This document shows, piece by piece, positions 128-33,515 of a DNA stretch of 38,051 bases. The DNA is from a virus. Below the pieces are notes generated by a model that saw only the letters and a list, made by a program, of their open reading frames with translations, was not told where the DNA came from and did not search any database. How positions within the stretch are numbered: the stretch's first letter is position 1; each line of letters starts with the position of its first letter. Both the position numbers and the translations under genes were made by a program. The stretch is from IMG/VR virus record IMGVR_UViG_3300037297_000093, positions 1-38,051 of that record, one strand, 5' to 3'.

Positions 128-1707
128 AAAACGGCGAAGCCTGGGAAGTTAAACTTGAGAACGGAAAAAAGAAACTTGTGATTGACAACGAGGATCTTTT
201 TATCGGCAAATATTGGAACCCTGACAGCATGACTCGCGGGCTTTCTCCGATTTCTTCCCTTGCCCTTACAGACTCAATCCGTTTTCATGCCATGGCTTTC
301 CAAGATAATTTTTTTAAAAATGATGCTACCCCGCCGCTGGTATTAAAAAAAGAAACCGTTGCCCAGGAGAGGGAACTTAAAGAATTCAAGGCTGCTATAA
401 GAGCGCGCCGCGGCGCGCAAAATGCTGGAAAAGAAATGATTTTGCATGGCGGGTGGTCTGTTGATACTTTAACGCCGAGCAATAAGGACATTCAGGTTTT
501 GAAAATTCTGGAAGCGACAACAGACGAAATTTGCGCTGTCTTCGGCGTTCCAAAAACTGAATTGTCAATCAGGGATGGTCTAAATTATGCCACGGCACTG
601 AGTGAGGATAGATCCTACTGGAAAAAGACACTTCTTCCGGACCTGAAAAAAATTGAATCGACTGTTAATGAATGGCTTAACACTATCGGTTATAGAGCAG
701 AACCGGATTTAAGATCAATCCCTTCGCTTAATTATGAATGGCTCGAATTAGTCGAGGCTGCCGAGAAATTAAAAAACATGGGATTTAAGCTGACCGAGAT
801 CAATGAAAAACTTGGTTTTGGTTTTGAAGATGTTGAGGACTCTACTCCGGAACCGGTCGCGGTCGCCCCTCCTCAGGAAACCGCGCCGGACCAGAGTAAA
901 AAAATAGATATTGATCAGCTGGGAAATATAAAAATTCCTCCTGAAGAGCAAGCAAAAGCGATAAGGGCTGCAATTTGGAAAAAGCTTGATGAAGAAGTCA
1001 AGGCGCCTGAGGCTCGCGCCCGGGCAGCTGTCAGAAAGTATTTTCTTGAGGTCGAGCGAAAGACCTTAAGGCGAATACAGAAAAACCTTGAAGCTGCTAA
1101 AACAAAAGCAGAGGAACGCGCTCCGGGAGTTGATGAACTTTTAGAATTTATCGACGATGCAAAATTGACTAATGCAATTAAGGGTCATATTGAAGAGGCA
1201 TCAAAAAAAGGCGTTGATTCTATGGGGATTGACTGGGAAACTGTCGACGATGATGCCCTGGCTGCGGTCCGAAAAAGAGTTGATAAGGTTACTCAAATTA
1301 ATACGACTTTAAAAATTGAACTTCGGGAAATGGTAAGCAAGGCAATAGCTGAAGGTTTGCCGGTTGACCAACTCGCAAAACAAATAATAACCGGATTTAA
1401 AGACAAAATGCGGGATGTTAAGCGAAGAGCGAAGACCATAGCCAGGACTGAAATAAACAGCGCCTATAGTGATGGTCGATTTGCCGCGATGTCATCAACT
1501 GATCCAATCGGGAAAAAGTGGATAACATCAAGATCGGGAGAAATCAGAGAGATGCATAAAAACTCAGACGGTGAAATTGTTAAATGGAATGATAATTTTA
1601 GCAATGGTCTTAGTCGTCCACATGATCCAGGTGGAGATAAAAAAAATGTGATAAACTGTCGTTGTAAAATGGTCCCAATATATGACCCGGAGGAGTTGCC
1701 AAAATGA
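1..1707 (+). CDS. Portal protein fused to MuF-type minor head protein (3' part)
   Basis: This is the main part of a gene that starts at 37592 and crosses the circular join. Joined, it encodes about 679 residues. The N-terminal two thirds has HK97-type portal features: an N-terminal QLPIVYACINSKSRNIA segment before the join, then RGLSPISSL and FGVPKTELSI here. Portals form the 12-subunit ring at the packaging vertex. The last roughly 100 residues (ARTEINSAYSDGRFAAM, then HKNSDGE and NCRCKMVPIY) match the phage Mu gpF / SPP1 gp7 head morphogenesis domain, with the usual final Cys-Arg-Cys. These two functions are usually separate neighbouring genes, so this is a fusion. A charged helical linker (about residues 400-560) joins them. 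It overlaps the next small gene by 4 bases (ATGA). Confidence 0.9.
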   Translation, partial: FYAMEAFLCSKGEFFFYPDIEDLYRGIPLNLWLFNPNDVKKTENGEAWEVKLENGKKKLVIDNEDLFIGKYWNPDSMTRGLSPISSLALTDSIRFHAMAFQDNFFKNDATPPLVLKKETVAQERELKEFKAAIRARRGAQNAGKEMILHGGWSVDTLTPSNKDIQVLKILEATTDEICAVFGVPKTELSIRDGLNYATALSEDRSYWKKTLLPDLKKIESTVNEWLNTIGYRAEPDLRSIPSLNYEWLELVEAAEKLKNMGFKLTEINEKLGFGFEDVEDSTPEPVAVAPPQETAPDQSKKIDIDQLGNIKIPPEEQAKAIRAAIWKKLDEEVKAPEARARAAVRKYFLEVERKTLRRIQKNLEAAKTKAEERAPGVDELLEFIDDAKLTNAIKGHIEEASKKGVDSMGIDWETVDDDALAAVRKRVDKVTQINTTLKIELREMVSKAIAEGLPVDQLAKQIITGFKDKMRDVKRRAKTIARTEINSAYSDGRFAAMSSTDPIGKKWITSRSGEIREMHKNSDGEIVKWNDNFSNGLSRPHDPGGDKKNVINCRCKMVPIYDPEELPK

Positions 1708-1874
1708 CAGGTGAGAAAGTCCCTAATGGCAAATGGCATGGCTGTAGACAATATAATTCTATTTTTGGTATTGAAAAAAAATTTACCAGGAGAGAATTCA
1801 GAAGATATCAAAAAAAGATATTATCAAAAGAGTTTGAATTGTCAATGACTGAATTAGGAGAATTGCCAAAATGA
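1704..1874 (+). CDS. Small basic protein, unknown function
   Basis: This 56-residue frame starts at an ATG overlapping the portal stop and ends with a TGA overlapping the ATG of the protease gene, so it is coupled on both sides. A GGAGG-like site (1690-1695) precedes it. It is rich in Lys, Arg and aromatic residues (KWHGCRQYNSIFG, RREFRRYQKK), and no family is recognised. Its last residues, ELPK, copy the end of the portal protein because the DNA at both junctions is nearly the same (see findings). Position suggests a head-assembly helper, but this is inference. Confidence 0.6.
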   Translation: MTGEKVPNGKWHGCRQYNSIFGIEKKFTRREFRRYQKKILSKEFELSMTELGELPK

Positions 1875-2548
1875 GAAAGATTTTAGATACCAATTTTAAA
1901 AAGAGAATTATTGACGGTAAGGAAGTTTACGAGGCAAAGTTTACGGCTCCGACTGTGGACCGCGATAATGAATTACTTTTGACTTCTGGCATTGACGTTT
2001 CACATTATGTTAAAAATCCAGTGGTTTTTTATGATCACGCATGGTCAACATGGGGTAGCCCACATGAGGAAACTTTGCCGATAGGAAAGGCTGTCAATGT
2101 AAAGATAGGCAAAAAAGAGGGAGTCGCTCAATTTGTTTTTTCTGATCTTGATTTTGCTCAAAAGGTTAAAATCCTTGTTGATGAGGGTATTTTAAATATG
2201 ACCTCAATCGGCTTTATCCCGAAAGAATATCTTCAGTCAGAGCAGGAAATGAAAAAAATCCTGGAAAGTGACGGAATTAAAATCGACGCACTTCCCCGGA
2301 TTATGTTCACAAAATCCGAAATGCTTGAATTCTCGATTGTCGGGATCCCGTCGAACCGGGAAGCAGCTATTTTAAATTCATACAACGGCCAGAAGGCCAA
2401 AGAGATAAAATCTATTTTGCAAGATATCAGCGGAAATTCAGAAGATACGGATAATAGCCGGACCGGAGCGCAGGCCAGCGCAGAAGAAGGCGAAAAGAAA
2501 TTGACATATCTGGATAAGCGGGTAACTTGCTACAGAAAGGAATTTTAA
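1871..2548 (+). CDS. Prohead serine protease, HK97 family
   Basis: The 225-residue product fits the caudovirus prohead protease family (S78). This enzyme cleaves the capsid protein's N-terminal scaffold part inside the prohead. Visible signatures are the N-terminal DRDNE (30-34), the probable catalytic His56 in YDHAW, the probable catalytic Ser112 in NMTSIGF, and the C-terminal block EFSIVGIPSN. The length is typical. It sits directly before the capsid gene, as in HK97-like phages, and its start is coupled to the preceding small gene through ATGA. A hydrophilic tail after residue 175 is poorly conserved and may be autoprocessed. Confidence 0.9.
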   Translation: MRKILDTNFKKRIIDGKEVYEAKFTAPTVDRDNELLLTSGIDVSHYVKNPVVFYDHAWSTWGSPHEETLPIGKAVNVKIGKKEGVAQFVFSDLDFAQKVKILVDEGILNMTSIGFIPKEYLQSEQEMKKILESDGIKIDALPRIMFTKSEMLEFSIVGIPSNREAAILNSYNGQKAKEIKSILQDISGNSEDTDNSRTGAQASAEEGEKKLTYLDKRVTCYRKEF

Positions 2549-2551
2549 ATT

Positions 2552-3889
2552 ATGGACAAATTAGAACTTTTGAAAAACCAGCTTGACCTTGTTAATAGGT
2601 CAATCGCCGATAAAAAAAATCTGCTCTCGAAAGAAGAGGACGCTTCCAAACAATCCGAGATTGTCGCAGAAATTGACACTTTGAACAAAGCCGCTGGAAA
2701 ACTTGAGGCACAGATCGAAGCCGAAAAAGAAAAACAGGCTGACGAGGCAGAACAGACCAAGGGAGCTATGAAAGATGCTCAGAAAAAATCAGGAATTGCC
2801 CAGGCCCATGCACAGACAAAAGAGCCAAAAATCGAAATCGTTCGCCCCGGAATGTATAAGGGATATCCCCTTAAGGCAGAGATGGCCGGGCTTCGCTCAG
2901 TACGCGATATTAAAAGCGATGAAGTAGCGGACGCTATTTGTCGCGCTATGATTAATATCTATGATCATACTACCAAACACCCAAGGAAAGAAATTTCAAT
3001 CAAAGCAGCCATGCAGGAGGATACAGCATCAGAGGGAGCAGAATTCATCACCACCGAAGTAAGGACCGAGCTGTTAAGCTATGCAAAGGATTTTTCTATT
3101 GCACTTCAGGACGCTTCAATAGTTCCGATGAAATCAAAAGTTATGACCGTACCTAAAGAATATGGTTCAATTACTTTGCTTTTTGAGCCTGAAGAGGATG
3201 CAATCCAGGCAACAAATGCAGGTAGTTCTAGTGTAACTTTAACTGCTAAGAAATTAGCCGGTTATTCAACAATTTCTAATGAATTGATCGATGATACTTT
3301 TCTTGCAGGCGGTATTACCTCAATGTTGTTGCCGATGTTCATTGAAGCTGCAGCCCAAAAAATTGACAGTGCTGTTTTTTGCGGGACTGGCGATCCTATG
3401 TCAGGTATATTTACCGGCGGCGTTGGATACTCTGAAGTTTTTGACACAGGAAGCACAAGCTTTTCTGAATTGCTGGAAGTTAATACCAGGAATCTTTTAG
3501 GTGCAATTCCTGAAAGATATCTTACTGCTGCAAAGTGGTATGTTGGTCAGTCAAACTATTATACCTATGTTTTAGGTTTGAAAGATACAACAGGAAAATA
3601 CCTTTTCCAGGAATCAACCCGGGGCGAAGGCGTAAACAAACGGCTTTGGGGTTATCCTGTTAGACATCCTTCAACTGTTCCAGCTAATGCGGAAGGTGCT
3701 GGTTTCGCGGTGTTCGGGGATCTCAAAGGTGTATTAATAGGTGAGCGAATGATGGACATGTCATTTAAAGTTGATCCTTATACAGCAATGAATACATGGC
3801 AGACAAAATTTTATTTTGTTATTAGATTTGCCTTGGCATTAGCAATGGGTAATAAACTCGGCAGGATTGTAACTGGAGCAGCATCATAA
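2552..3889 (+). CDS. Major capsid protein, HK97 fold
   Basis: This 445-residue protein has a highly charged coiled-coil N-terminus (about residues 1-75, then a linker to about 110). That is the expected scaffold or delta domain removed by the upstream protease. A capsid body follows, with family features such as the EGAEFITTEVRTELL start of the mature part, QDASIVPMKSKVMTVP, and a C-terminal region with NKLGRIVTG. The start ATG lies 3 bases after the protease stop, with AGAAAGGAA as ribosome binding site. A strong hairpin follows the gene, fitting the need to set capsid expression apart from the downstream cargo genes. Confidence 0.92.
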   Translation: MDKLELLKNQLDLVNRSIADKKNLLSKEEDASKQSEIVAEIDTLNKAAGKLEAQIEAEKEKQADEAEQTKGAMKDAQKKSGIAQAHAQTKEPKIEIVRPGMYKGYPLKAEMAGLRSVRDIKSDEVADAICRAMINIYDHTTKHPRKEISIKAAMQEDTASEGAEFITTEVRTELLSYAKDFSIALQDASIVPMKSKVMTVPKEYGSITLLFEPEEDAIQATNAGSSSVTLTAKKLAGYSTISNELIDDTFLAGGITSMLLPMFIEAAAQKIDSAVFCGTGDPMSGIFTGGVGYSEVFDTGSTSFSELLEVNTRNLLGAIPERYLTAAKWYVGQSNYYTYVLGLKDTTGKYLFQESTRGEGVNKRLWGYPVRHPSTVPANAEGAGFAVFGDLKGVLIGERMMDMSFKVDPYTAMNTWQTKFYFVIRFALALAMGNKLGRIVTGAAS

Positions 3890-3900
3890 AATAAAATCTT

Positions 3901-3951
3901 AGGACTTAGCGCGCTGGGCTCCAAAAAATCCCTGGCGCGCGGTCCTTTCTT
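3901..3951 (+). terminator. Extended hairpin after the capsid gene, terminator-like
   Basis: AGGAC (3901-3905) pairs with GTCCT (3942-3946). Inside it, GCGCGCTGGG (3909-3918) pairs with CCCTGGCGCGC (3930-3940) with two G-U pairs, leaving an A-rich loop. The 3' side runs into TTTCTTT, a weak U-tract. The GC-rich stem is far stronger than anything nearby. It could be an imperfect terminator or an mRNA-stabilising end. Confidence 0.7.
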
Positions 3952-3966
3952 TGAGGAGCAAAGCCA

Positions 3967-5142
3967 ATGCGGATACATTGGGCAGTTAATACAAATTATA
4001 TCGGTATAGGATTTGGATATTCAACTCATCAAAAGAGACTTAGAGAAGGCTTAGAGCGGCAAGGTGTTGAAATTACCGAGAAATCTGATATCGCGGTACA
4101 CCTTACAACCCCTGATGCCTTTCGCCCCATTCCCGGAAAATTCAATATTCTGTATACAATGTATGAATGTACCACTTTGCCGAAAAGATGGGTTGATCCG
4201 ATTAATAAGGCTCATGCGTTAGTGGTCCCATGCAGGCAGAATGTTGCTTTATTCCGGAACTATACAAAATTACCACTTGCTTTATGTTGGGAAGGTGTAG
4301 AGGTAGACAAGTATACTTACATCGAGCGAGAATTTCCAGAAGATCGGCCATTTACTTATTTGTGGTTAGGTGCTTCAAATCCACGGAAGGGGACAGAGCA
4401 TATAATTTATGCATGGGAAAGATTCAATATTGAATTACAAATGCGTGGAATGGATAGAACCAAATTTTTACTTATTTTGAAAACCACCCAGGAACGTGAC
4501 AGGGAAGTGGGAGTCAATTTCAAGTTTAAAAATAAACAAGGGAAATTACTTTGGGAGGAAACAAAAAGCGAAAAGATGCCAGCAGAAAGATTATTGCAGG
4601 TTGCCGGAAATGCTATTTTTGATTCTCGGCGGTTGCCTGTCCTGCCTGTCAAATGTGAATACAATCTTAATGAACCAAATTCTTTACAGGAAATCTATCA
4701 TGCGGCTCATTGTTTTGTACTTCCAACTCGTGGGGAGGGCTTCGGGTTAACCTTGGCAGAGGCGGCGGCGACTGGTTGCCCTTGCATCTATACACCATGG
4801 GGCGGGCCAAAAGATTTTATGAGTCGAGATACTGGATATCCTTTGAAATTTAAGTTTTCACCGGTCCGAGCCATAGGTTATAGAAAAAATAAAGAATCCG
4901 GGAAAATGGAAAAATATATTTCTCATGAAAGCCAGGGGGCTGACGCTGATATAGATCATATTGTTAGACGTATGTTTCAAGTTTATTTTGATTATAAAAC
5001 AGCTTTGGAAAAAGGGAAAAAGGCGGCTGAAAATATACGGGCCGGGTTTACCTGGGATATATCAGCTCAATCATTTATAAAAATTGTTGAAAACTGGATG
5101 CCAGTGATTCAAGAAAAATTAAAGGAGATTAAAGCGGCGTGA
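3967..5142 (+). CDS. Glycosyltransferase, GT4-like (GT-B fold)
   Basis: The 391-residue product resembles retaining GT-B glycosyltransferases of family 4. The clearest sign is the C-terminal nucleotide-sugar site at about residues 250-285 (HCFVLPTRGEGFGLTLAEAA, then ATGCP), with the EGFGLTLAEA signature and the ExxxxG(C/T)P continuation. WLGASNPRKGTEHIIYA (about 133-150) is the usual strand and loop following the inter-domain linker. The N-terminal half has a gapped sugar-acceptor domain. It sits between capsid and tail genes and overlaps the sulfotransferase-like gene by 4 bases, so it is probably co-translated. The acceptor could be a virion protein, phage DNA or host surface sugar; the sequence does not say which. 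It could also be GT1-like in older naming. Confidence 0.85.
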   Translation: MRIHWAVNTNYIGIGFGYSTHQKRLREGLERQGVEITEKSDIAVHLTTPDAFRPIPGKFNILYTMYECTTLPKRWVDPINKAHALVVPCRQNVALFRNYTKLPLALCWEGVEVDKYTYIEREFPEDRPFTYLWLGASNPRKGTEHIIYAWERFNIELQMRGMDRTKFLLILKTTQERDREVGVNFKFKNKQGKLLWEETKSEKMPAERLLQVAGNAIFDSRRLPVLPVKCEYNLNEPNSLQEIYHAAHCFVLPTRGEGFGLTLAEAAATGCPCIYTPWGGPKDFMSRDTGYPLKFKFSPVRAIGYRKNKESGKMEKYISHESQGADADIDHIVRRMFQVYFDYKTALEKGKKAAENIRAGFTWDISAQSFIKIVENWMPVIQEKLKEIKAA

Positions 5143-5810
5143 ATAAGATAATGTGGTTTTTTCTACACGTTGTAAAAACTGGCGGTACCACACTTTTTAA
5201 ACATATCGAAAAACATTTTCCAAATTCTCGACGAGTTAATATTGGTATACGACCGAAAAGCACAGACGAATTTATCTCTGGTCACTGTTTTGCAATTAAT
5301 TTAAACAGTCATAAGCCTTTTAAAAATGTTGATCCTCGATATATTACTATTATCCGGGATCCGGCCGACTGGCTCCTCTCTGTTTATCATCAGGACATGA
5401 GCAGAAGGGATAAAATTATTTCTTTCCGCGATTGGTACGATTGCGGAAATCCAAATTCAGTAATTCCCGGACCTACCAGGGCCAGGGACAGAATGACAAA
5501 ATATCTTGAAAATCTTTTTTGTTGTAACGGTGTTGAAAATATTATCTATCATCTTAACAATACTTTTTATAAAGTTTTCATTACAGATAAATTAAATATT
5601 GATTTACCAAAGTTTTTTAAAGAGCTTGGAATCAATGAAGATTTTGAATCGTGGCGAGTATGCGGTAAGTATTCGAAAGAGGACAAAAAAATTATTCCTA
5701 AGCTTCAGGAAATGACACCTGATTTAAGAAATATGATATATAAGCAAAACACAATGGATTTAAAAATATATGTTGAGGCAAGACGTATAAGAGGAGCAAG
5801 CAATGAATAA
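5139..5810 (+). CDS. PAPS-dependent sulfotransferase-like protein
   Basis: This 223-residue protein begins with GTG overlapping the previous stop (GTGA), with AAAGGAGA upstream. It shows the two PAPS-binding elements of the carbohydrate sulfotransferase superfamily. The 5'-phosphosulfate loop is FLHVVKTGGTTLF (8-20), with Lys13 and Thr17/Thr18. The 3'-phosphate loop is ITIIRDPADWLLSVYH (69-84), with Arg73, Pro75 and Ser81. The internal SGH (47-49) is also common in the family. Length is near the short end but both cofactor sites are present. In the family the product is a sulfated sugar or tyrosine. Between a glycosyltransferase and a radical SAM gene, sulfation of a sugar is the natural inference. 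Confidence 0.8.
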   Translation: MNKIMWFFLHVVKTGGTTLFKHIEKHFPNSRRVNIGIRPKSTDEFISGHCFAINLNSHKPFKNVDPRYITIIRDPADWLLSVYHQDMSRRDKIISFRDWYDCGNPNSVIPGPTRARDRMTKYLENLFCCNGVENIIYHLNNTFYKVFITDKLNIDLPKFFKELGINEDFESWRVCGKYSKEDKKIIPKLQEMTPDLRNMIYKQNTMDLKIYVEARRIRGASNE

Positions 5811-6636
5811 TATTTTATTTTTCCCTACGATGAGATGTAATTTAAAATGTTCTTACTGTCATTTCAAGGTTGACAGAAACAAAGAGGATTATGATTGGAC
5901 TGGATACGGCAAAACACATCATATAGAGAGAGAGCTTCCCTATCAAGACTTTTTAACCTTTTTTGAAAAGGTTCAACCTTATCACCTGGAATTTTCCGGT
6001 GGAGAGCCGACGATCTATTATGATTTTAAAAATCTTGTGAATAATATTCATGATGGCTCAAAATGGGCGATTACTTCTAACACTTTAGGCGATTTATCCG
6101 GAATTGATTTTTCAAAACTGGAATGCTGGACCGCTTCATGCCATACAGAAAATCAAAGATTTTTTGACAACATAATGTATTTAAAATCAAATGGTGTTAG
6201 CGTTTCAATTTCAATGGTGGTTACAAAGGCAAACATCGAAAATGTAATTTACAGGACTATAAAATATTCAAAATACGGCGTTAGGATTAATCTTTTAAGA
6301 GAGCTAAACCCGGGTGTATCATGGAATAATACTGAAGAGTGGGAAGTCTTGAAAATCATGAAGCACTTAGGCGTAAATGTTGTTGAAGATGATATACCGC
6401 CAGAATATGAATTCACAAGCGGGTGGTATTGTGAAGGTGGGCGGGCTTATTTTTCTGTCATGCCTGACGGTAAAGTTTATCGATGTTATTCCGAAGCAAT
6501 GACAGGTGAACCTTTGGGAGATGTAAAAACTTTTTCGCCTGGTAGCAATCCTACTGAATGTTATCGAAAATGCTTCGGCTGCGCTATGGATTACAAAGCA
6601 CACGTTCACAAATTGCAAAATAAAGATTGCAAATAA
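5803..6636 (+). CDS. Radical SAM protein with SPASM-like C-terminal cysteines
   Basis: The 277-residue product carries the radical SAM motif C12-x3-C16-x2-C19 (RCNLKCSYC), which binds a [4Fe-4S] cluster and S-adenosylmethionine, and the GGEP motif at 66-69. The C-terminal third has more cysteines: WYCEGG, YRCYS, then C253, C257, C260 and C276. This resembles SPASM or twitch auxiliary-cluster regions of enzymes that modify peptides or sugars. The start overlaps the sulfotransferase-like gene by 8 bases, with GAGGAGC upstream. No small precursor-peptide gene is obvious alongside. The substrate is unknown; a third step on the same acceptor as the two upstream enzymes is an inference from gene order only. 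Confidence 0.88.
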   Translation: MNNILFFPTMRCNLKCSYCHFKVDRNKEDYDWTGYGKTHHIERELPYQDFLTFFEKVQPYHLEFSGGEPTIYYDFKNLVNNIHDGSKWAITSNTLGDLSGIDFSKLECWTASCHTENQRFFDNIMYLKSNGVSVSISMVVTKANIENVIYRTIKYSKYGVRINLLRELNPGVSWNNTEEWEVLKIMKHLGVNVVEDDIPPEYEFTSGWYCEGGRAYFSVMPDGKVYRCYSEAMTGEPLGDVKTFSPGSNPTECYRKCFGCAMDYKAHVHKLQNKDCK

Positions 6637-22593: not shown

Positions 22594-22662
22594 GCTTGGG
22601 TCGTTTAATGGCTAAGACAATAGGGCGCCCTATAAATTCAGGTTCGATTCCTGACCCAGGCA
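22594..22662 (+). tRNA. tRNA-like element 2 with a four-base anticodon loop (not a normal tRNA)
   Basis: GCTTGGG/CCCAGGC forms a seven-pair acceptor stem (22594-22600 and 22655-22661). A D-arm (GTTT/AGAC), a T-arm (TCAGG, TTCGATT, CCTGA at 22638-22654) and the usual connecting bases are in place. The anticodon arm is ATAGG, loop GCGC, CCTAT (22620-22633). The loop has four bases instead of seven, so there is no anticodon and no U33. An upstream GCCTGG (22584-22589) could compete for the acceptor strand. No CCA is encoded. Confidence 0.6.
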
Positions 22663-25378: not shown

Positions 25379-25527
25379 TAATTATAGAAGAAAATGAAAA
25401 AGGTAGGTTTTATGTAGACAGTGGCCTTTTTCACGTTCAAACACCAAACAATCAAATCAAATCATCAAATAGTGCAATTATAGCCTATGAGATGTTTAAA
25501 AAACTGAAAAGGAAGGTTAAGAAATGA
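25375..25527 (+). CDS. Small basic protein between recombination genes
   Basis: This 50-residue frame is coupled on both sides by ATGA overlaps: its ATG lies in the preceding stop and its stop lies in the SbcD-SbcC start. AAGGATG precedes it. The product (GRFYVDSGLFHVQTPNN in the middle, KKLKRKVKK at the end) is basic at its C-terminus. No family is recognised. Confidence 0.55.
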   Translation: MIIIEENEKGRFYVDSGLFHVQTPNNQIKSSNSAIIAYEMFKKLKRKVKK

Positions 25528-28500
25528 TTAAAATAGCCCATACTGGAGACGTTCACGTCTGCCGGAAATATAAAGACGAGGCTTTCGCCTCATTAAAGAC
25601 GCTAATTGATACGGCTTGGAAAGAGGAAATCAATCTTTTTGTTTTAGCCGGGGATCTTTTTGACGCGTCAATGCAAAATACGGCGGCTGATGGATTTCCA
25701 GAACTTAATAACTTGGTTCAAGAAATGATGAATATTGCTCCTGTTGTAACCGTTTACGGGACCCCTACCCATGACATAATGGGGTGCTATGATGTTTTTA
25801 CTAGGCTTGATGCAAAACATCCTTTTATAATTCTTGAACCTGGAACCGCATATTTTTTGAATAATGATAATAGAATAGATTTCAAATATTCACAAGATGC
25901 AAAATTTTTAATTCTCGGATGTCCTGAACCACAAAAAAATTGGTTTGTTGGGAATAATAAAGCCATGAGCCGCGAAGAGTCAAACCAAGCCATTATTGAC
26001 GGTATGAAAAATATTCTTTTAGGACTTGGCGCTATTCGAAAAGAATATTTACATTTACCATGTTTGATGGTTTATCATGGAAATGTTGCCGGCTCTACTC
26101 TCCAAAACGGCCAATTATTGGGACAATCAGAAATTACAATCGGGAAAGATGATCTTGCCATGATAGGTGCTGATTACTACGCTATTAATCACATACATTT
26201 ATATCAGGAATTATTTCTAAATGCTTTTTATTCCGGCTCAGTTTATCCGGTTGATTGGGGCGAACGTGACCAAAAAGCTTTTAATCTGGTTACATTTGGA
26301 GAAATGGAAAAATGGTTTCCTCCTCATCCAGGAGACAGACCAGAATTCAAAATTGCTTTAAAAAAAATCAATTATCCTCACGCTCCATTAAAAAAGATTG
26401 AAATGTCATTATCTGATTTAAAAAATGGTCTATTTGTTGAATATATGGGTTTTAAAACATGGTTAGAAATTTCATGTAATGATGAAGAGGCCAAAGAAAT
26501 AAATATTCAAAAATGGACTAATGATATTATAAATCTTGGAGCCCTTCCAGGCTCTAAGATAACAATAAGAAAAATTGCCCGTGAAACTGTCCGCGCTGAA
26601 GGAATTCAAACAGCTAAACACCTGAGAGATAAAATAAAAGTATACGCTGAAGCCTCAAGCTTGCCAACGCCGGAAGACTCAATATTTGAAAAAGCCGACA
26701 AACTTGAAAAAGAACTTTATCAAAACGGCTCGAAATTCCATGAATTAAATATCAGAATGAAATCTTTACACCTTCGCGGGGCTATTGGCATCATGAAAAA
26801 GTCAGATAAAGAGGAAATCAAAATTGATTTTGAAAATTATGAGCCTGGCTTGATTGCTTTAATCGGTCAAAACGGAGCCGGGAAAACTACTCTATTAGAA
26901 AATTTGCATCCTTATCCAAGTTTATTGACTCGCTCAGGAAAATTGCAAGATCATTTTCAATTAAGGGATTCATTCAGGGATTTATATTTTATCGACGAAC
27001 GAACAGGAATAGAATACAGGGCCTTTATTCAGATTGACGGTCAAAATCAATCTGGAAAATGTGATTATAATATTTTCAGGAAAAACAATTCTGGAACTTT
27101 TGAGCCTTTGACAAATGGGAGAGCAAAGGATTATGAAGAAAAAGTCAATGAATTATTTGGAAGCTTAGACCTATTCCTCAAATCTGCTTTTATTACTCAA
27201 AAACCGCCGAAGGGAAGCCCGGACTTGTCAGAAGCAACAAAGGGACAAAGAAAAGCTTTATTCCTGGAACTTGCAGGGCTTGAAAAATATCAGAAGTTTT
27301 CAGAAAATGCAAAAGAGAAAAGAAAAAGCCTCGAAGACTCAACCCTCAAAACATCTGGACAAATTGAGGCTTTAAAATTTGACCTTGAGCAAAAAGAAAA
27401 GATTAAAAATGATTTTTATCAAGCCAAAGAAAAAAAAGATTTTTTAATATCTCAATTAGTAGATATTGAAAAAAAAGGTCAATCTTCAAAAGCAGAACTT
27501 GAAAAGCTTGAAAAAGAATCATCAGAGAATGACAAAATTTTATCTGAAATAAAACAGATAAAAGAAAAGATTTCTGAACGGAACGTCGAATTAATTACAA
27601 ATGATAGAGTCATAAAAAATGTAGAATCTTCCCTATTAAACAAAGATGAACACAAAGAAAAAATAGTTTTATTCGATTCTATTTCAAAAAAGCTTAAAGA
27701 TATCTACTCTCAAAATGAAGAGATCAGAAAAAATAATTCTGATTTACAAGATTCATTTTTACAAAATCTTGGTTTTTATGATGATAAGATAAATTTATTT
27801 AAAGAAAAAATTCATGAAAAAGAAATTGAAATAAAAGAAAAATACAATAAATATATAAACGCGCAACAGGAAAAAATAAGAGCAGAAAAAGAAATTGAAA
27901 AACTAAGTAATGAAAAAAACTGTCCTACTTGCGGTCAAGAATTGCCAGAACAGGCAAAGAGAAATATTCAATTAAATATTGTAGTTTTAAAAGATGGTGT
28001 CAAAATAAAAGTTGATAGCTTAGAAATCTATAGCAAAGTAATATCAAAACTAAAGCTTGAAAAACAAGAGCTTGAAAACCAAAAAGCAAATCTTTTAAGA
28101 CCCTTGAACCCTGAATATGAAAACGAAATAGACTCTTCAAAATTTCAATCAGTCTTAGACAAAATCAATATTGAAGAGTCAAGAAAAATTGTTTCTGACG
28201 CCGAGCAAGCAGAATTCATTATTAGCGAAAAGAAAAAAGACAATTTAAAACTTGCATCAGATAACGAATATGACAAAGCGAAGCTTGAAAAATTGATAAA
28301 TAAATATGATGAAAATATACCTCACATTTTAAAAGAAGTGAAAGAAGGCTATGCAAAATTACAAGATGATTATTCAATAAAAAAAGCAGATATAAAAGGA
28401 ATTGAAGCACAAATTGAATTCCTTGAAAAAGCTTTGACTGAAATTTACGATAAATCAAAAAAACTTGATGAACTCGAAAAAGAAACAAGCAAAACAAAAA

Positions 28501-29012
28501 AAGAGATTTCAGAATGGTTATTCCTGGAAAAAGCCTGTGGGCCTGACGGAATCCAGGCGCTTGAACTGGACGCATTAAGCCCAAATATTGAATCAGAGGT
28601 CAATAATATTTTGCGGTCCGCCTATGGTGATCGGTTTTCAATTAAATTCGAGACTACCAGAATCGGAGGTACCGGGAAAAATACCAAACAGATTGAAGAT
28701 TTTTTAATCATGATTAATGATAACGGTCATATTCAGGAACTATCAACGCTATCAGGGGGTGAGGAAGTTTGGATCAAAAAAGCTATTTATGATGCTTTCG
28801 GAATTATCAGGAATCAAAATACAGGCACTAACTTTTTGACGGTTTGCATGGATGAAGCCGACGGATCGCTTGATCATGAAAGCAAACAACAATATTTGAA
28901 AATGGTTCAGGCCTCACACCTTCAGGCAGGGAAACATCATACTATTTTAATTACTCATGACACGTTTATTCAACAGCAAATCGATCAAAAAATTATTATG
29001 AGTGAACTATAA
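25524..29012 (+). CDS. SbcD-SbcC (Mre11-Rad50) single-chain nuclease-ATPase fusion
   Basis: The 1162-residue protein joins two enzymes usually encoded by separate genes. The N-terminus is a metallophosphoesterase: GDVH (8-11), GDLFD (43-47), GTPTHD (79-84, in place of GNHD), YHGN (184-187) and NHIH (222-225). The rest is an SMC-like ATPase: Walker A GQNGAGKTT (448-456), two coiled-coil arms around a zinc hook CPTC (800-803), signature LSGGEE (1076-1081) and Walker B with Asp1110-Glu1111. SbcCD trims DNA ends and hairpins. A fusion would fix one nuclease per ATPase. All main ATPase motifs are present; the third nuclease motif is altered. The frame has no break. Confidence 0.92.
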   Translation: MIKIAHTGDVHVCRKYKDEAFASLKTLIDTAWKEEINLFVLAGDLFDASMQNTAADGFPELNNLVQEMMNIAPVVTVYGTPTHDIMGCYDVFTRLDAKHPFIILEPGTAYFLNNDNRIDFKYSQDAKFLILGCPEPQKNWFVGNNKAMSREESNQAIIDGMKNILLGLGAIRKEYLHLPCLMVYHGNVAGSTLQNGQLLGQSEITIGKDDLAMIGADYYAINHIHLYQELFLNAFYSGSVYPVDWGERDQKAFNLVTFGEMEKWFPPHPGDRPEFKIALKKINYPHAPLKKIEMSLSDLKNGLFVEYMGFKTWLEISCNDEEAKEINIQKWTNDIINLGALPGSKITIRKIARETVRAEGIQTAKHLRDKIKVYAEASSLPTPEDSIFEKADKLEKELYQNGSKFHELNIRMKSLHLRGAIGIMKKSDKEEIKIDFENYEPGLIALIGQNGAGKTTLLENLHPYPSLLTRSGKLQDHFQLRDSFRDLYFIDERTGIEYRAFIQIDGQNQSGKCDYNIFRKNNSGTFEPLTNGRAKDYEEKVNELFGSLDLFLKSAFITQKPPKGSPDLSEATKGQRKALFLELAGLEKYQKFSENAKEKRKSLEDSTLKTSGQIEALKFDLEQKEKIKNDFYQAKEKKDFLISQLVDIEKKGQSSKAELEKLEKESSENDKILSEIKQIKEKISERNVELITNDRVIKNVESSLLNKDEHKEKIVLFDSISKKLKDIYSQNEEIRKNNSDLQDSFLQNLGFYDDKINLFKEKIHEKEIEIKEKYNKYINAQQEKIRAEKEIEKLSNEKNCPTCGQELPEQAKRNIQLNIVVLKDGVKIKVDSLEIYSKVISKLKLEKQELENQKANLLRPLNPEYENEIDSSKFQSVLDKINIEESRKIVSDAEQAEFIISEKKKDNLKLASDNEYDKAKLEKLINKYDENIPHILKEVKEGYAKLQDDYSIKKADIKGIEAQIEFLEKALTEIYDKSKKLDELEKETSKTKKEISEWLFLEKACGPDGIQALELDALSPNIESEVNNILRSAYGDRFSIKFETTRIGGTGKNTKQIEDFLIMINDNGHIQELSTLSGGEEVWIKKAIYDAFGIIRNQNTGTNFLTVCMDEADGSLDHESKQQYLKMVQASHLQAGKHHTILITHDTFIQQQIDQKIIMSEL

Positions 29013-30198: not shown

Positions 30199-30545
30199 TC
30201 GACAAAAAAACACGATTCTTTATAACCGGGATTTTCACACTTCTTGTTGTAATCTTCATTTACATGATTTGGTATACGTCTAACATAAAAATTGAAGCCG
30301 ACAGAGCAAAGCCTAACTATCAATCATATGATATCGAAGAGGGAATTAATATAATGCTAAACGGAGTCAATGAATTAAAAACTGTTCTCTCACAGTATGA
30401 AAAAGAATTGTTCTATTGGAAAAGGCGTATTGATTCTGTTTATCATCGTTATTATCCGAAGGGATCGGCTCAGGATATTGATTCACAGTTCAGGTCAATA
30501 GAGCAAAGGCTTGAAATCTGTAATTTTGGAAGGGAAGGAGAATGA
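30195..30545 (+). CDS. Membrane-anchored coiled-coil protein
   Basis: ATG 30195 overlaps the previous stop and has GGGG six bases upstream; ATG 30183 would add four residues. The 116-residue product has one N-terminal membrane helix (FFITGIFTLLVVIFIYMIWY) and then a helical domain with coiled-coil tendency (NIMLNGVNELKTVLSQYEKE). The topology (short inside, long outside) resembles an i-spanin, so a second spanin-like gene cannot be excluded. It overlaps the methyltransferase gene (ATGA). Confidence 0.5.
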   Translation: MIDKKTRFFITGIFTLLVVIFIYMIWYTSNIKIEADRAKPNYQSYDIEEGINIMLNGVNELKTVLSQYEKELFYWKRRIDSVYHRYYPKGSAQDIDSQFRSIEQRLEICNFGREGE

Positions 30546-31237
30546 AAAACATAGTTCACTTAATTGATAACATTGAATTTATGAAAAACATTCCATACAA
30601 AAATTATGATTTGTCTATTGTTGATCCGCCTTATGGGATAAATTTGAAAGGTAAAAACCCTATAAAGAATAAAAACGATACCAAAGATTTTAATACAAAA
30701 TGGGATAATGCAATACCTGATAAAGAATATTTTATAGAGCTTAAAAGAATTTCAACGTCACAGATAATATGGGGCGGCAATTATTTTTTAGATTATTTGG
30801 GATTCTGTAAAGCGCCTATAATATGGGATAAACTAAACGGAAAATCTATGTATGCAGACGGTGAGATGGCATGGACTAGCGGAGATCTACCACGGAATTT
30901 AAAAATATTTAGACATCAATGGTGTGGAGCATTTAAAGATTCGGAACGAGGTAATATTAATATCCACCCGACACAAAAACCAGTTGCACTATACAAATGG
31001 CTATTAAAAAACTACGCCAAGCCAGGTCAAACAATCTTTGATTCGCACGTCGGTTCAGGGTCAATTCGAATAGCCTGTCATGATATGGGCTTTGACTTTG
31101 AAGGATGCGAAATTGACCAGGACTATTGGCAAGCTCAAGAGGACCGATATAAAAACCATATTTCCCAGCAATCATTATTTGATACAGAAGAAATTCAGAA
31201 ATCAGTTTATGAAGAATGGAGCTTTGATTTTGAATAA
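30542..31237 (+). CDS. DNA methyltransferase, N6-adenine/N4-cytosine, beta-type order
   Basis: The 231-residue product has the catalytic DPPY (28-31), HPTQKP (about 141-146) and then the SAM-binding FDSHVGSGS (about 167-175). The catalytic-before-SAM order marks a class beta enzyme that methylates adenine N6 or cytosine N4. It could shield phage DNA from host restriction. A specificity region of about 100 residues lies between the motifs. Its 3' end overlaps a GIY-YIG nuclease-like gene by about 29 bases, an unusual partner for an orphan phage methylase. Confidence 0.88.
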   Translation: MKNIVHLIDNIEFMKNIPYKNYDLSIVDPPYGINLKGKNPIKNKNDTKDFNTKWDNAIPDKEYFIELKRISTSQIIWGGNYFLDYLGFCKAPIIWDKLNGKSMYADGEMAWTSGDLPRNLKIFRHQWCGAFKDSERGNINIHPTQKPVALYKWLLKNYAKPGQTIFDSHVGSGSIRIACHDMGFDFEGCEIDQDYWQAQEDRYKNHISQQSLFDTEEIQKSVYEEWSFDFE

Positions 31238-31586
31238 AAAACTACCTGAAGAAATAACAATGCTGAATAAAATAATACCGGCTGAAATGATTCTTTTTGA
31301 CTATAGAATCGATTCGCCCGGGGTTTATATTATAGCCGATTCAAACAATAATATTCTTTATATCGGAGAGGCTAAAAACATTTATAAAAGATTATCAAGG
31401 AAAGATCATCCAATTTATAATAAAAAGATAAGTAAATTTAGGCTTGATGATTACCAGGTTTTTTCTATCATTTATCATAATGATTCTTTGAGATGGCGCG
31501 CCGAAACATTTTTAATTGCAGCCATGGACCCGATTTATAATGATATTAAATACCTTTATGGATGTACAAAGAAGAGGAAAAGATAA
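31209..31586 (+). CDS. GIY-YIG endonuclease-like protein
   Basis: From ATG 31209 the product has 125 residues; a TTG at 31230, with GGAG upstream, is an alternative. The GIY-YIG core is visible: GVYIIADSNNNILYIGEA, then YKRL with the conserved Arg, RAETFLIAAMDP with the metal-binding Glu, and the final IYND with Asn. The domain fills the whole protein, with no DNA-binding module. Overlap with the methylase suggests co-translation. Possible roles are a restriction partner, a free-standing homing enzyme, or a host-DNA nuclease. Confidence 0.75.
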   Translation: MKNGALILNKKLPEEITMLNKIIPAEMILFDYRIDSPGVYIIADSNNNILYIGEAKNIYKRLSRKDHPIYNKKISKFRLDDYQVFSIIYHNDSLRWRAETFLIAAMDPIYNDIKYLYGCTKKRKR

Positions 31587-31593
31587 AAAAATG

Positions 31594-31622
31594 TTGATTT
31601 TTCTTAAGTTTTGGTATAAAAT
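31594..31622 (+). promoter_or_regulatory. Promoter of the structured RNA
   Basis: TTGATT (31594-31599), exact 17-base spacer, TAAAAT (31617-31622), overlapping a second possible -10 TATAAA with extended TGG. It lies in the gap after the nuclease gene. Transcription should start near 31629-31630, at the first hairpin of the RNA. Confidence 0.68.
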
Positions 31623-31629
31623 TAGTAAT

Positions 31630-31747
31630 AAATCAGAGTTCGCCGCCTGATTTTAAATAAGAACGTTGATTAAGCTAGACAATCCAGAAGGGTTTCAACG
31701 TTCACCCTTTTGCCCTTGGCCGGGCCTGGATTCTCTAGCTTTTTTTT
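31630..31747 (+). ncRNA. Pseudoknotted three-way-junction RNA with terminator tail
   Basis: A first hairpin AAATCAG/CTGATTT spans 31630-31653. Then AAGCTAGA and AATCCAG (31672-31687) pair with CTGGATT and TCTAGCTT (31726-31741), broken only by one C-C mismatch. Inside are AAGGGT/ACCCTT (31688-31693, 31704-31709) and GCCC/GGGC (31712-31715, 31722-31725). This makes a three-way junction that ends in a U-run to 31747. The ten-base loop of the first inner hairpin (31694-31703) holds TCAACGTTC, perfectly complementary to GAACGTTGA at 31661-31669. It is either a small RNA or a leader attenuator for the gene at 31762. Confidence 0.75.
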
Positions 31748-31761
31748 GGAAAGGATTTAAA

Positions 31762-32031
31762 ATGAGCATACTTGAAAAATTAGGAATTAACAGTGAAATG
31801 GTTTATAAAAACTTATATCAAGATGATGATTATTTAAAGTTTTTAGTTTGGAAAAAACATACTTGGCCGACTTATTCACAAATGCTTGAGGCTTTGATGT
31901 TAGAGTGTATAGATCATGAAAAATGCGGATTATTACCAGAACATGATAAAAATACAAAAATTATGGTTAATTCAATCGAAAATACAACCGGCCTATCGTG
32001 GGAAGAAATATCAAAACGTTTAAAGGATTGA
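31762..32031 (+). CDS. Small protein downstream of the structured RNA, unknown function
   Basis: The ATG at 31762 has GGAAAGGA 8-14 bases upstream, right after the U-run of the RNA; the longer open frame upstream is just the RNA. The 89-residue product (LEKLGINSEMVYKNLYQDDD, WKKHTWPTYSQMLEALMLEC, GLSWEEISKRLKD) is helical and acidic with no known motif. If the RNA is an attenuator, this gene and the replication gene beyond it are its targets. Confidence 0.6.
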   Translation: MSILEKLGINSEMVYKNLYQDDDYLKFLVWKKHTWPTYSQMLEALMLECIDHEKCGLLPEHDKNTKIMVNSIENTTGLSWEEISKRLKD

Positions 32032-32035
32032 AAAA

Positions 32036-32188
32036 ATGACAGACGAGCAATTAAGAAAAATTATAAAAGAAAAAGCAGAGTTGAGATTTAATGAATTGAA
32101 AAATAAAAACTTTGAATGGAAATCTTTTTATAATGGATTTCTTGAGGGAGCGGTTATTGTTTATATGGAAGGGTTGAAAAATGGCTAG
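32036..32188 (+). CDS. Small helical protein, unknown function
   Basis: The 50-residue product (TDEQLRKIIKEKAELRFNEL, FEWKSFYNGFLEGAVIVYME) is amphipathic and helical. The ATG has AAGGATTG upstream and the stop overlaps the replication gene by 8 bases, supporting coupled translation. No family is recognised. Confidence 0.5.
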   Translation: MTDEQLRKIIKEKAELRFNELKNKNFEWKSFYNGFLEGAVIVYMEGLKNG

Positions 32189-33515
32189 AAAAAGAATGTT
32201 AAGCCCGGATATCTGGCGGGATAAAAAAACTATCCAACTAACTAATGAAGAATTTATTTTAATGATAGGCGCAATTTCTGCTGCTGACGATGAGGGAATA
32301 ATTGAGCCTGACCCAGGTTCATTTTTTTTTGAATTAGGACGACAGGAACTATCAACAGAGACTATTCAAAAAGGATTTGACAAACTTTTTAAGCTTGGAA
32401 TTCTTGTTAAATATGGAGATTACGCCTTTTTCCCGAACTGGTTTAAGCATCAGTATCTTGACAAACCGCAACCAACAAAGCACGAACGACCGCCAAAAAG
32501 CGTGATTGACCAGTTCCCAAAATATGCAAAGCAATGGATAGAGACTTTTAAAAAGTGTTCAAAAATGCAAGAAGTTTATGAATTCCCATATGGCCCAGAA
32601 AACACTTTAATATGTATGAAAAATCATACACTTTTAAAAGCTATTGACCTTGAAAATTTTGCGATTATAGAAAGCAAAAGAACATTCTCGGAACGTTCCC
32701 AGAACAATCCTGGATTAATCCGAGAACAATCCTGGAACGTTCCAGCCAGCAGCGAAGAGCAAAAAACAACAAAATTGGAGGATGATCCTACAATTGAGAA
32801 GGTTTTTGACGAAAATATTGCTATCGAAGAGCAAAAGAACATTCTCGGAACGTTCCTGGAACGTTCCGAGATTAATCCAGGAACGTTCCCGCCTAAAAGA
32901 AAAGAAAAGAAAAGAAAAGAAAGTAAATTAATAGAACCGAACCAAAAAGAAATTAATAAAAAAGAACCGAAAAGAACCGAACCGAAAAGAGATGATGAAA
33001 AAAAAATCTCGAAAAAGCCAATCGGATTAATTACCAGCATGGTCAAAGATTTTCTTGATTTTAACAAGCTCGAAATAAATGATTCTCTTTTGCCAGAAAT
33101 CGTTGATAGGATCATTGACAAAAACCTTGACCGTTCATTTTGTGATTATTGTTTTGAATATGCAAAAAATAAAAATCCGGCCAGCTTAGAAGGATATTTT
33201 ATAAAATGCATTTTGAAATTTGACAGCCTTATCGATTCCTGGAAAGAAACAAAAGGACTTGATTTTGAAATCAAAGAAAAAATTCCGATCAAATCAGAGT
33301 TAGAAAAAGAATGTCCAAATTGTAAAGTAATCATGAAACACGATAAAGGCGAATTTCAATGTAAAAAATGCCAGGCTGTTTATAAATTAAAAAAAGGCAA
33401 ACTTGAAAAGATCACGGCTGAAGAAATACCTAAAGAGGCTTTCAAGCTTGAAAATTATTTAGATGATAAAAAAGGCGATAAGCCTGATGATAAAATTGAA
33501 TTAGGGATTTTTTAG
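32181..33515 (+). CDS. Replication organiser/initiator with internal origin
   Basis: The 444-residue product has an N-terminal winged-helix region (SPDIWRDKKTIQLTNEEFIL, then ISAADDEGIIEPDPG and KLFKLGILVKYGDYAFFPNW, about 7-105), like replisome organiser proteins of Gram-positive and other phages. A low-complexity, very basic middle (about 170-280) is encoded by the repeat blocks and by purine-rich DNA. A helical domain at 285-360 and a zinc-ribbon pair at about 373-395 (CPNC ... CKKC) close it. In lambda O the initiator gene also contains its own binding sites. It would load the helicase at the origin; no helicase or polymerase gene was identified in the window. Confidence 0.72.
   Translation: MARKRMLSPDIWRDKKTIQLTNEEFILMIGAISAADDEGIIEPDPGSFFFELGRQELSTETIQKGFDKLFKLGILVKYGDYAFFPNWFKHQYLDKPQPTKHERPPKSVIDQFPKYAKQWIETFKKCSKMQEVYEFPYGPENTLICMKNHTLLKAIDLENFAIIESKRTFSERSQNNPGLIREQSWNVPASSEEQKTTKLEDDPTIEKVFDENIAIEEQKNILGTFLERSEINPGTFPPKRKEKKRKESKLIEPNQKEINKKEPKRTEPKRDDEKKISKKPIGLITSMVKDFLDFNKLEINDSLLPEIVDRIIDKNLDRSFCDYCFEYAKNKNPASLEGYFIKCILKFDSLIDSWKETKGLDFEIKEKIPIKSELEKECPNCKVIMKHDKGEFQCKKCQAVYKLKKGKLEKITAEEIPKEAFKLENYLDDKKGDKPDDKIELGIF
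32679..32743 (+). repeat. Iteron block A of the likely origin
   Basis: Six decamers start at 32679, 32690, 32701, 32712, 32723 and 32734, each separated by one base, so exactly every 11 bp: AGAACATTCT, GGAACGTTCC, AGAACAATCC, GGATTAATCC, AGAACAATCC, GGAACGTTCC. Three are perfect palindromes. The 21-base pairs at 32701 and 32723 also read as direct repeats. Confidence 0.85.
32836..32889 (+). repeat. Iteron block B of the likely origin
   Basis: Five decamers start at 32836, 32847, 32858, 32869 and 32880, again every 11 bp: AGAACATTCT, GGAACGTTCC, GGAACGTTCC, AGATTAATCC, GGAACGTTCC. A purine-rich stretch follows (AAAAGAAAAG repeats from about 32896 and further GAACCGA repeats to about 33010), with AT-rich patches that could melt. 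Confidence 0.85.

Follow-up and report, generated by a model that had tools for sequence, protein, structure and literature searches.

We analysed a virus record of 38,051 bases (IMGVR_UViG_3300037297_000093; 35% GC), hereafter the window, which derives from an unclassified phage, codes for portal, HK97-type capsid, tape-measure and terminase proteins and has nearly all of its long ORFs in the rightward direction. Genes for an N6/N4 DNA methylase and a GIY-YIG nuclease are followed by a gap of 175 nt (31587–31761) that is filled by an RNA element, and behind this leader lies a putative operon of a gene for an 89-residue protein, a small ORF and a phage replication initiator, the last large gene. 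The original prediction, made from the sequence alone, had placed a structured RNA ahead of the replication genes, and the initiator gene indeed starts downstream, at 32181. The features of the region are listed below.

30542–31237, N6/N4 DNA methylase gene
about 31260–31586, GIY-YIG nuclease gene
31591–31650, plus strand, possible leader ORF of 19 codons, MLIFLKFWYKISNKSEFAA (tentative)
31594–31622, plus strand, promoter-like TTGATT-17-TAAAAT, 9 of 12 consensus matches, at chance level
31630–31653, plus strand, 5′ hairpin AAATCAG..CTGATTT, whose 5′ arm (31631–31642, segment 1) can alternatively pair with segment 2
31661–31669, plus strand, segment 2, GAACGTTGA, exact complement of P2 loop bases, candidate 5′ arm of the antiterminator, seqA-like
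31661–31703, plus strand, predicted antiterminator hairpin, a 9-bp P4 helix stacked on AATCC/GGGTT
31672–31741, plus strand, Y-shaped terminator fold of P1 (31672–31687/31726–31741), P2 (31688–31709) and P3 (31712–31725)
31695–31703, plus strand, P2 loop, TCAACGTTC, candidate 3′ arm of the antiterminator, seqB-like
31740–31747, plus strand, T8 tract, whose first two T's close the stem by pairing with A31672–A31673
31748–31755, plus strand, Shine-Dalgarno sequence GGAAAGGA of the 89-residue protein gene, unpaired in the predicted fold
31762–32031, plus strand, first gene downstream of the element, 89 residues, no family, predicted all-helical (pLDDT 72)
32181–33515, plus strand, phage replication initiator/replisome organizer (phrog_1408, E 1.7e-11; phrog_2149; phrog_16167)

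The basal stem P1 contains 15 pairs, eight of them (31672–31679/31734–31741) separated by a single C31680·C31733 mismatch from the remaining seven (31681–31687/31726–31732), and coincides with an inverted repeat, I1, of 16 nt (94%). It carries the hairpins P2 (6 pairs, 31688–31693/31704–31709, with a loop of 10 nt) and P3 (4 pairs, 31712–31715/31722–31725, with a loop of 6 nt), joined in a three-way junction with linkers of 0, 2 and 0 nt. RNA of positions 31660–31747 folds at -32.1 kcal/mol against -19.3 ± 2.9 kcal/mol in shuffles (z -4.4), none of 200 shuffles being as stable, which bears out the predicted 15-pair stem closing a tight three-way junction and ending in a U-run. The energies given here are computed with a nearest-neighbour model for 37 °C.

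When folds associated with U-tracts were scanned on both strands, the element (-31.1 kcal/mol) had the lowest energy on the plus strand and the second-lowest in the window, the sole lower terminator-like energy belonging to the iteron palindromes described below, folded on the minus strand. The next terminator-like element on the plus strand, a hairpin at 3901–3946 (-24.5 kcal/mol) directly past the capsid gene, is probably an ordinary terminator. In GC-corrected folding excess over 90-nt windows, the element ranked largest of 7,594 on the minus strand and among the top on the plus strand. A minus-strand RNA, which would fold more stably still, was set aside, as the neighbouring genes lie on the plus strand and the U-tract is found on that strand only. 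Also rejected were a TTG-started frame (31666) that crosses the element into the 89-residue protein gene, for which a weak Shine-Dalgarno sequence precedes the TTG and a strong one the ATG at 31762, and a type III toxin-antitoxin RNA, as tandem repeats are absent at the element and the protein encoded downstream has no family match. On the plus strand, a stable G+C-containing stem (about -31 kcal/mol) extends to 31741 and T's follow through 31747, the arrangement of an intrinsic terminator, and we consider with high confidence that a structured, orphan intrinsic terminator is the most likely identity of the modelled element. It is probably one of the phage leader terminators/attenuators, a known kind of element, with unusual details in its branched terminator and loop-based antiterminator.

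That no known RNA family would be recognised was part of the original prediction, and the check agrees: Rfam returned no family at the gathering threshold and nothing meaningful at E<=10. A blastn search with the element found nothing in phages and only short, chance-level matches in plasmids, and a 17-nt loop pattern hit a single IMG/VR contig, in an unrelated coding sequence (L001). The pattern GAACGTTGA..TCAACGTTC occurs in 22 IMG/VR stretches and at least 118 genome stretches, which, judged by eye from their sequences, appear to be coding, to consist of simple repeats or to form perfect hairpins, and to lack the fold. Relatives of the terminase (about 60% identity) and of the methylase exist, and the element region is absent from those of their stretches that were compared; for the initiator, the SbcCD-like protein described below and the 89-residue protein, protein searches gave zero relatives, and the predicted structure of the last had zero matches in the PDB at E<=0.001. 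In sum, the DNA, pattern and protein routes yielded no homologue of the element in the phage, plasmid and IMG/VR collections.

The original prediction had further noted a nine-base complementarity between a hairpin loop and a segment just upstream of the junction. The match between 31661–31669 and 31695–31703 is exact and covers 9 of the 10 bases of the P2 loop, and when the 85 nt upstream were shuffled 100,000 times, complementarity of at least nine bases arose in 216 cases (about 0.2%). The duplex of loop and segment has a computed energy of -11.9 kcal/mol. As is characteristic of an attenuator, this alternative 9-bp pairing, with its chance of 0.2%, is incompatible in the computed folds with the P2 arm and with some of P1b.

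Growing transcripts starting at 31630, and also with the 5′ end at 31587, were folded stepwise by minimum free energy (MFE) and partition function. In the model, 31631–31642 is first paired with segment 2, a weak pairing, the energy of the 5′ segment being equalled in 55 of 1000 shuffles (5.5%). Once the transcript extends to about 31702, GAACGUUGA and the P2 loop segment form a helix that stacks on AAUCC/GGGUU, and the 5′ hairpin 31630–31653 also forms; in this predicted antiterminator, the MFE structure of transcripts ending at 31705–31732, an 11-nt bulge holds the 5′ strand of the terminator base. The 9-bp pairing is dominant up to about 31730, leading in the modelled nascent RNA for as long as the final ~10 stem bases are still to emerge, and at about 31732–31738 it is displaced by the terminator. 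The probability of the P4 helix is 0.98–0.99 with RNA visible to 31724–31728, 0.29–0.64 at 31732 and 0 at 31738, varying with the assumed 5′ end; with the 5′ end at 31587 the behaviour is similar and less clean (0.72–0.79 at 31724–31728). With segment 2 blocked, the probability of P1b at 31730–31736 increases from 0.08–0.59 to 0.57–0.98. Leader:loop pairing as high as this was reached by only 2 of 1000 shuffled leaders, and the simple duplex energy alone was equalled by 7%. In the full-length RNA, the terminator wins fully at equilibrium (-31.6 versus -17.5 kcal/mol for the state with P4 and P3). RNA polymerase hides roughly the last dozen nucleotides of the nascent transcript, so that the two folds would be near balance with the polymerase at the end of the U-tract.

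These models lead us to propose, tentatively, that the element serves the replication operon as its leader terminator and most likely works as a transcription attenuator; graded apart from the terminator reading, attenuation is probable, at moderate confidence. In the nascent RNA, GAACGUUGA would pair first with UCAACGUUC to form the antiterminator, and the terminator would take over as the polymerase releases the 3′ stem arm, stopping transcription at 31742–31747. Stabilisation of the early pairing would favour read-through, and occupation of GAACGUUGA by a ribosome, a protein or a terminated RNA acting in trans would favour termination. Because the Shine-Dalgarno sequence right after the U-tract stays unpaired, control would be exerted by termination and not by masking of that sequence. 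The position before the replication initiator counts in favour of the attenuator reading. Conversely, since the terminator wins widely at equilibrium, the element may, in the absence of an input, simply always terminate. The lack of homologues in the searches above, the chance-level promoter and the weak pairing of segments 1 and 2 also weigh against attenuation. If the switch works, it would provide RNA-based on/off control directly before a phage replication initiator; to our knowledge few such controls are known, satellite phage P4 being the textbook case.

Among known systems, the closest functional analogue is the leader of the phage P4 replication operon, likewise a structured RNA in a replication leader with a complementary segment upstream; there, CI RNA pairs with seqA and seqC and makes transcription stop short of the replication genes (PMC4825925). 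The trp/phe-type attenuators (1:2, 2:3, 3:4) likewise have a 2:3 antiterminator and a 3:4 terminator that are mutually exclusive, with a weaker 1:2 pairing, and here too a possible leader ORF ends in segment 1, though it is marginally above chance; they differ in that the terminator here is a three-way junction and the operon is not a biosynthetic one. Rho-independent terminators share the stable stem followed by a U-tract, but are single short hairpins, whereas the element is a branched stem of 70 nt immediately before a Shine-Dalgarno sequence. The c4 antisense RNAs of the phage P1/P7 type act via exposed complementary segments. A phage RNA with such segments is what the element has in common with the c4 family (RF01695; listed in PMC2864571), whose covariance model it does not match at E<=10.

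The predicted -35/-10 pair with 17-base spacing is present, as TTGATT-17-TAAAAT with 9 of 12 consensus positions, but the claim that the RNA has its own promoter fared poorly, since sites of equal quality occur 34 times in 7.5 kb against 35.6 expected and the -35 overlaps the start of the possible leader ORF. This ORF, MLIFLKFWYKISNKSEFAA, begins 4 nt past the stop codon of the GIY-YIG nuclease gene and ends within the 5′ hairpin, just beyond segment 1. Of the shuffles, 3.4% contain an ORF of this kind, and a translated leader is a possible but weak candidate for the input of the proposed attenuator. If the ORF is used, transcription must enter from upstream, at odds with the promoter-like sequence. 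A search for sRNA targets of the element within the phage gave none that stood out.

The simplest competing explanation is a plain intrinsic terminator, if an unusually branched one, that would end transcription coming from upstream or yield an RNA of ~118 nt, with the nine-base complementarity a coincidence without function. The strong terminator fold, its far greater stability than the alternative pairing and the co-directional genes upstream are all in keeping with this, yet a 9-nt loop complement has a chance of only ~0.2%, and a terminator 14 nt ahead of the start of a gene read in the same direction points to regulated read-through, as no promoter fits between the terminator and the 89-residue protein gene; we regard it as rather unlikely, if the foremost of the alternatives. 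Less likely again, and in our estimate improbable, is an antisense mechanism like that of phage P4, in which the RNA 31672–31741, processed or terminated, would pair through its loop with the leader of new transcripts and cause premature termination before the replication genes. The order of complementary segment, structured RNA and replication genes is that of phage P4 (PMC4825925), the loop:segment duplex has the energy given above, and segment 2 occupied in trans would promote the terminator in the model. Phage P4, however, has seqA upstream and seqC downstream, whereas here there is an upstream site only, all downstream copies carrying 2 mismatches; the element matches neither c4 nor isrK in Rfam; and no integrase or repressor was recognised among the proteins scanned, leaving lysogeny unproven. 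An RNase III processing site or a 5′ stabilising structure of the replication mRNA, like the stems of the T7 early region, would suit the long helix, which runs almost unbroken through the 16 bp of P1 and the 6 bp of P2, and its location between genes of one direction; given that a T8 tract right at the foot of the stem is what terminators typically have and that the junction interrupts the duplex, we give it only a slim chance.

Whether the loop pairing and the terminator fold compete or combine, as in a riboswitch or sRNA, had been left undecided by the original prediction. The folding of growing transcripts speaks for competition. A pseudoknot in which the 9-bp pairing coexists with the complete junction would exploit the perfect complementarity to a hairpin loop, but A-form geometry suggests that nine pairs are hard to fit in a loop of 10 nt, and the loop sits past the junction, whereas segment 2 is held by just 2 nt at the foot of the 16-bp stem. 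Linkers of 0, 2 and 0 nt would, from junction geometry, favour P2 stacked on P1 or leaning to P3, in both cases away from the base. On this geometry a static pseudoknot is judged very unlikely, because the two linker bases would need to span the 16-bp stem; competition is the simpler reading, and in the models the full stem and the 9-bp pairing seem to exclude each other.

The remaining explanations involve DNA repeats inside the initiator gene, where palindromic iterons phased at 11 bp form clusters at 32680–32744 (6 units) and 32836–32890 (5 units), with units RGAACNNTCC-N and RGATTAATCC-N; these clusters are a probable replication origin. Iterons of 11 bp with GGAACGTTCC are also present in IMG/VR contigs L192 (2988–3222) and L193 (1957–1989), inside sequence-divergent initiator-like genes, and are absent from four sampled annotated phages with related initiators (L194–L197). 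In the element, GAACGTT and AACGTTC could be half-sites of the iteron GGAACGTTCC through which the initiator autoregulates its operon, the complementarity then being that of two inverted sites. Seven bases are identical to iterons at 32690–32889, but the match covers only 7 of 10 positions, the spacing is out of the 11-bp phase and AACGTT occurs in the window at chance frequency (10 versus 9.4 expected), making such a DNA-level signal very improbable. There is a marginally better, still very small, chance that the element is a new class of phage replication switch, attenuating through a three-way junction and carrying the initiator's iteron core (AACGTTC) in its switching segments, with the initiator or a leader RNA in trans closing a feedback between origin use and transcription.

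Elsewhere in the window, Rfam gives a tRNA match at 22594–22662 (46.5 bits), where ARAGORN reports none. Within the structural region, at 3967–6636, an unassigned ORF (5139–5810) is flanked by glycosyltransferase and radical-SAM genes, possibly glycan-modification cargo. In the terminase relative L003 (60% identity), ORFs at 197–5526, upstream of its packaging genes, resemble a sugar-nucleotide transferase, an acyl carrier protein, a short-chain dehydrogenase, a CoA-ligase and an aminopeptidase, names assigned by eye from the translations. A single ORF of 1162 residues at 25524–29012 is an apparent fusion of an SbcD-like phosphoesterase and a Rad50/SbcC-like ATPase with a zinc hook.
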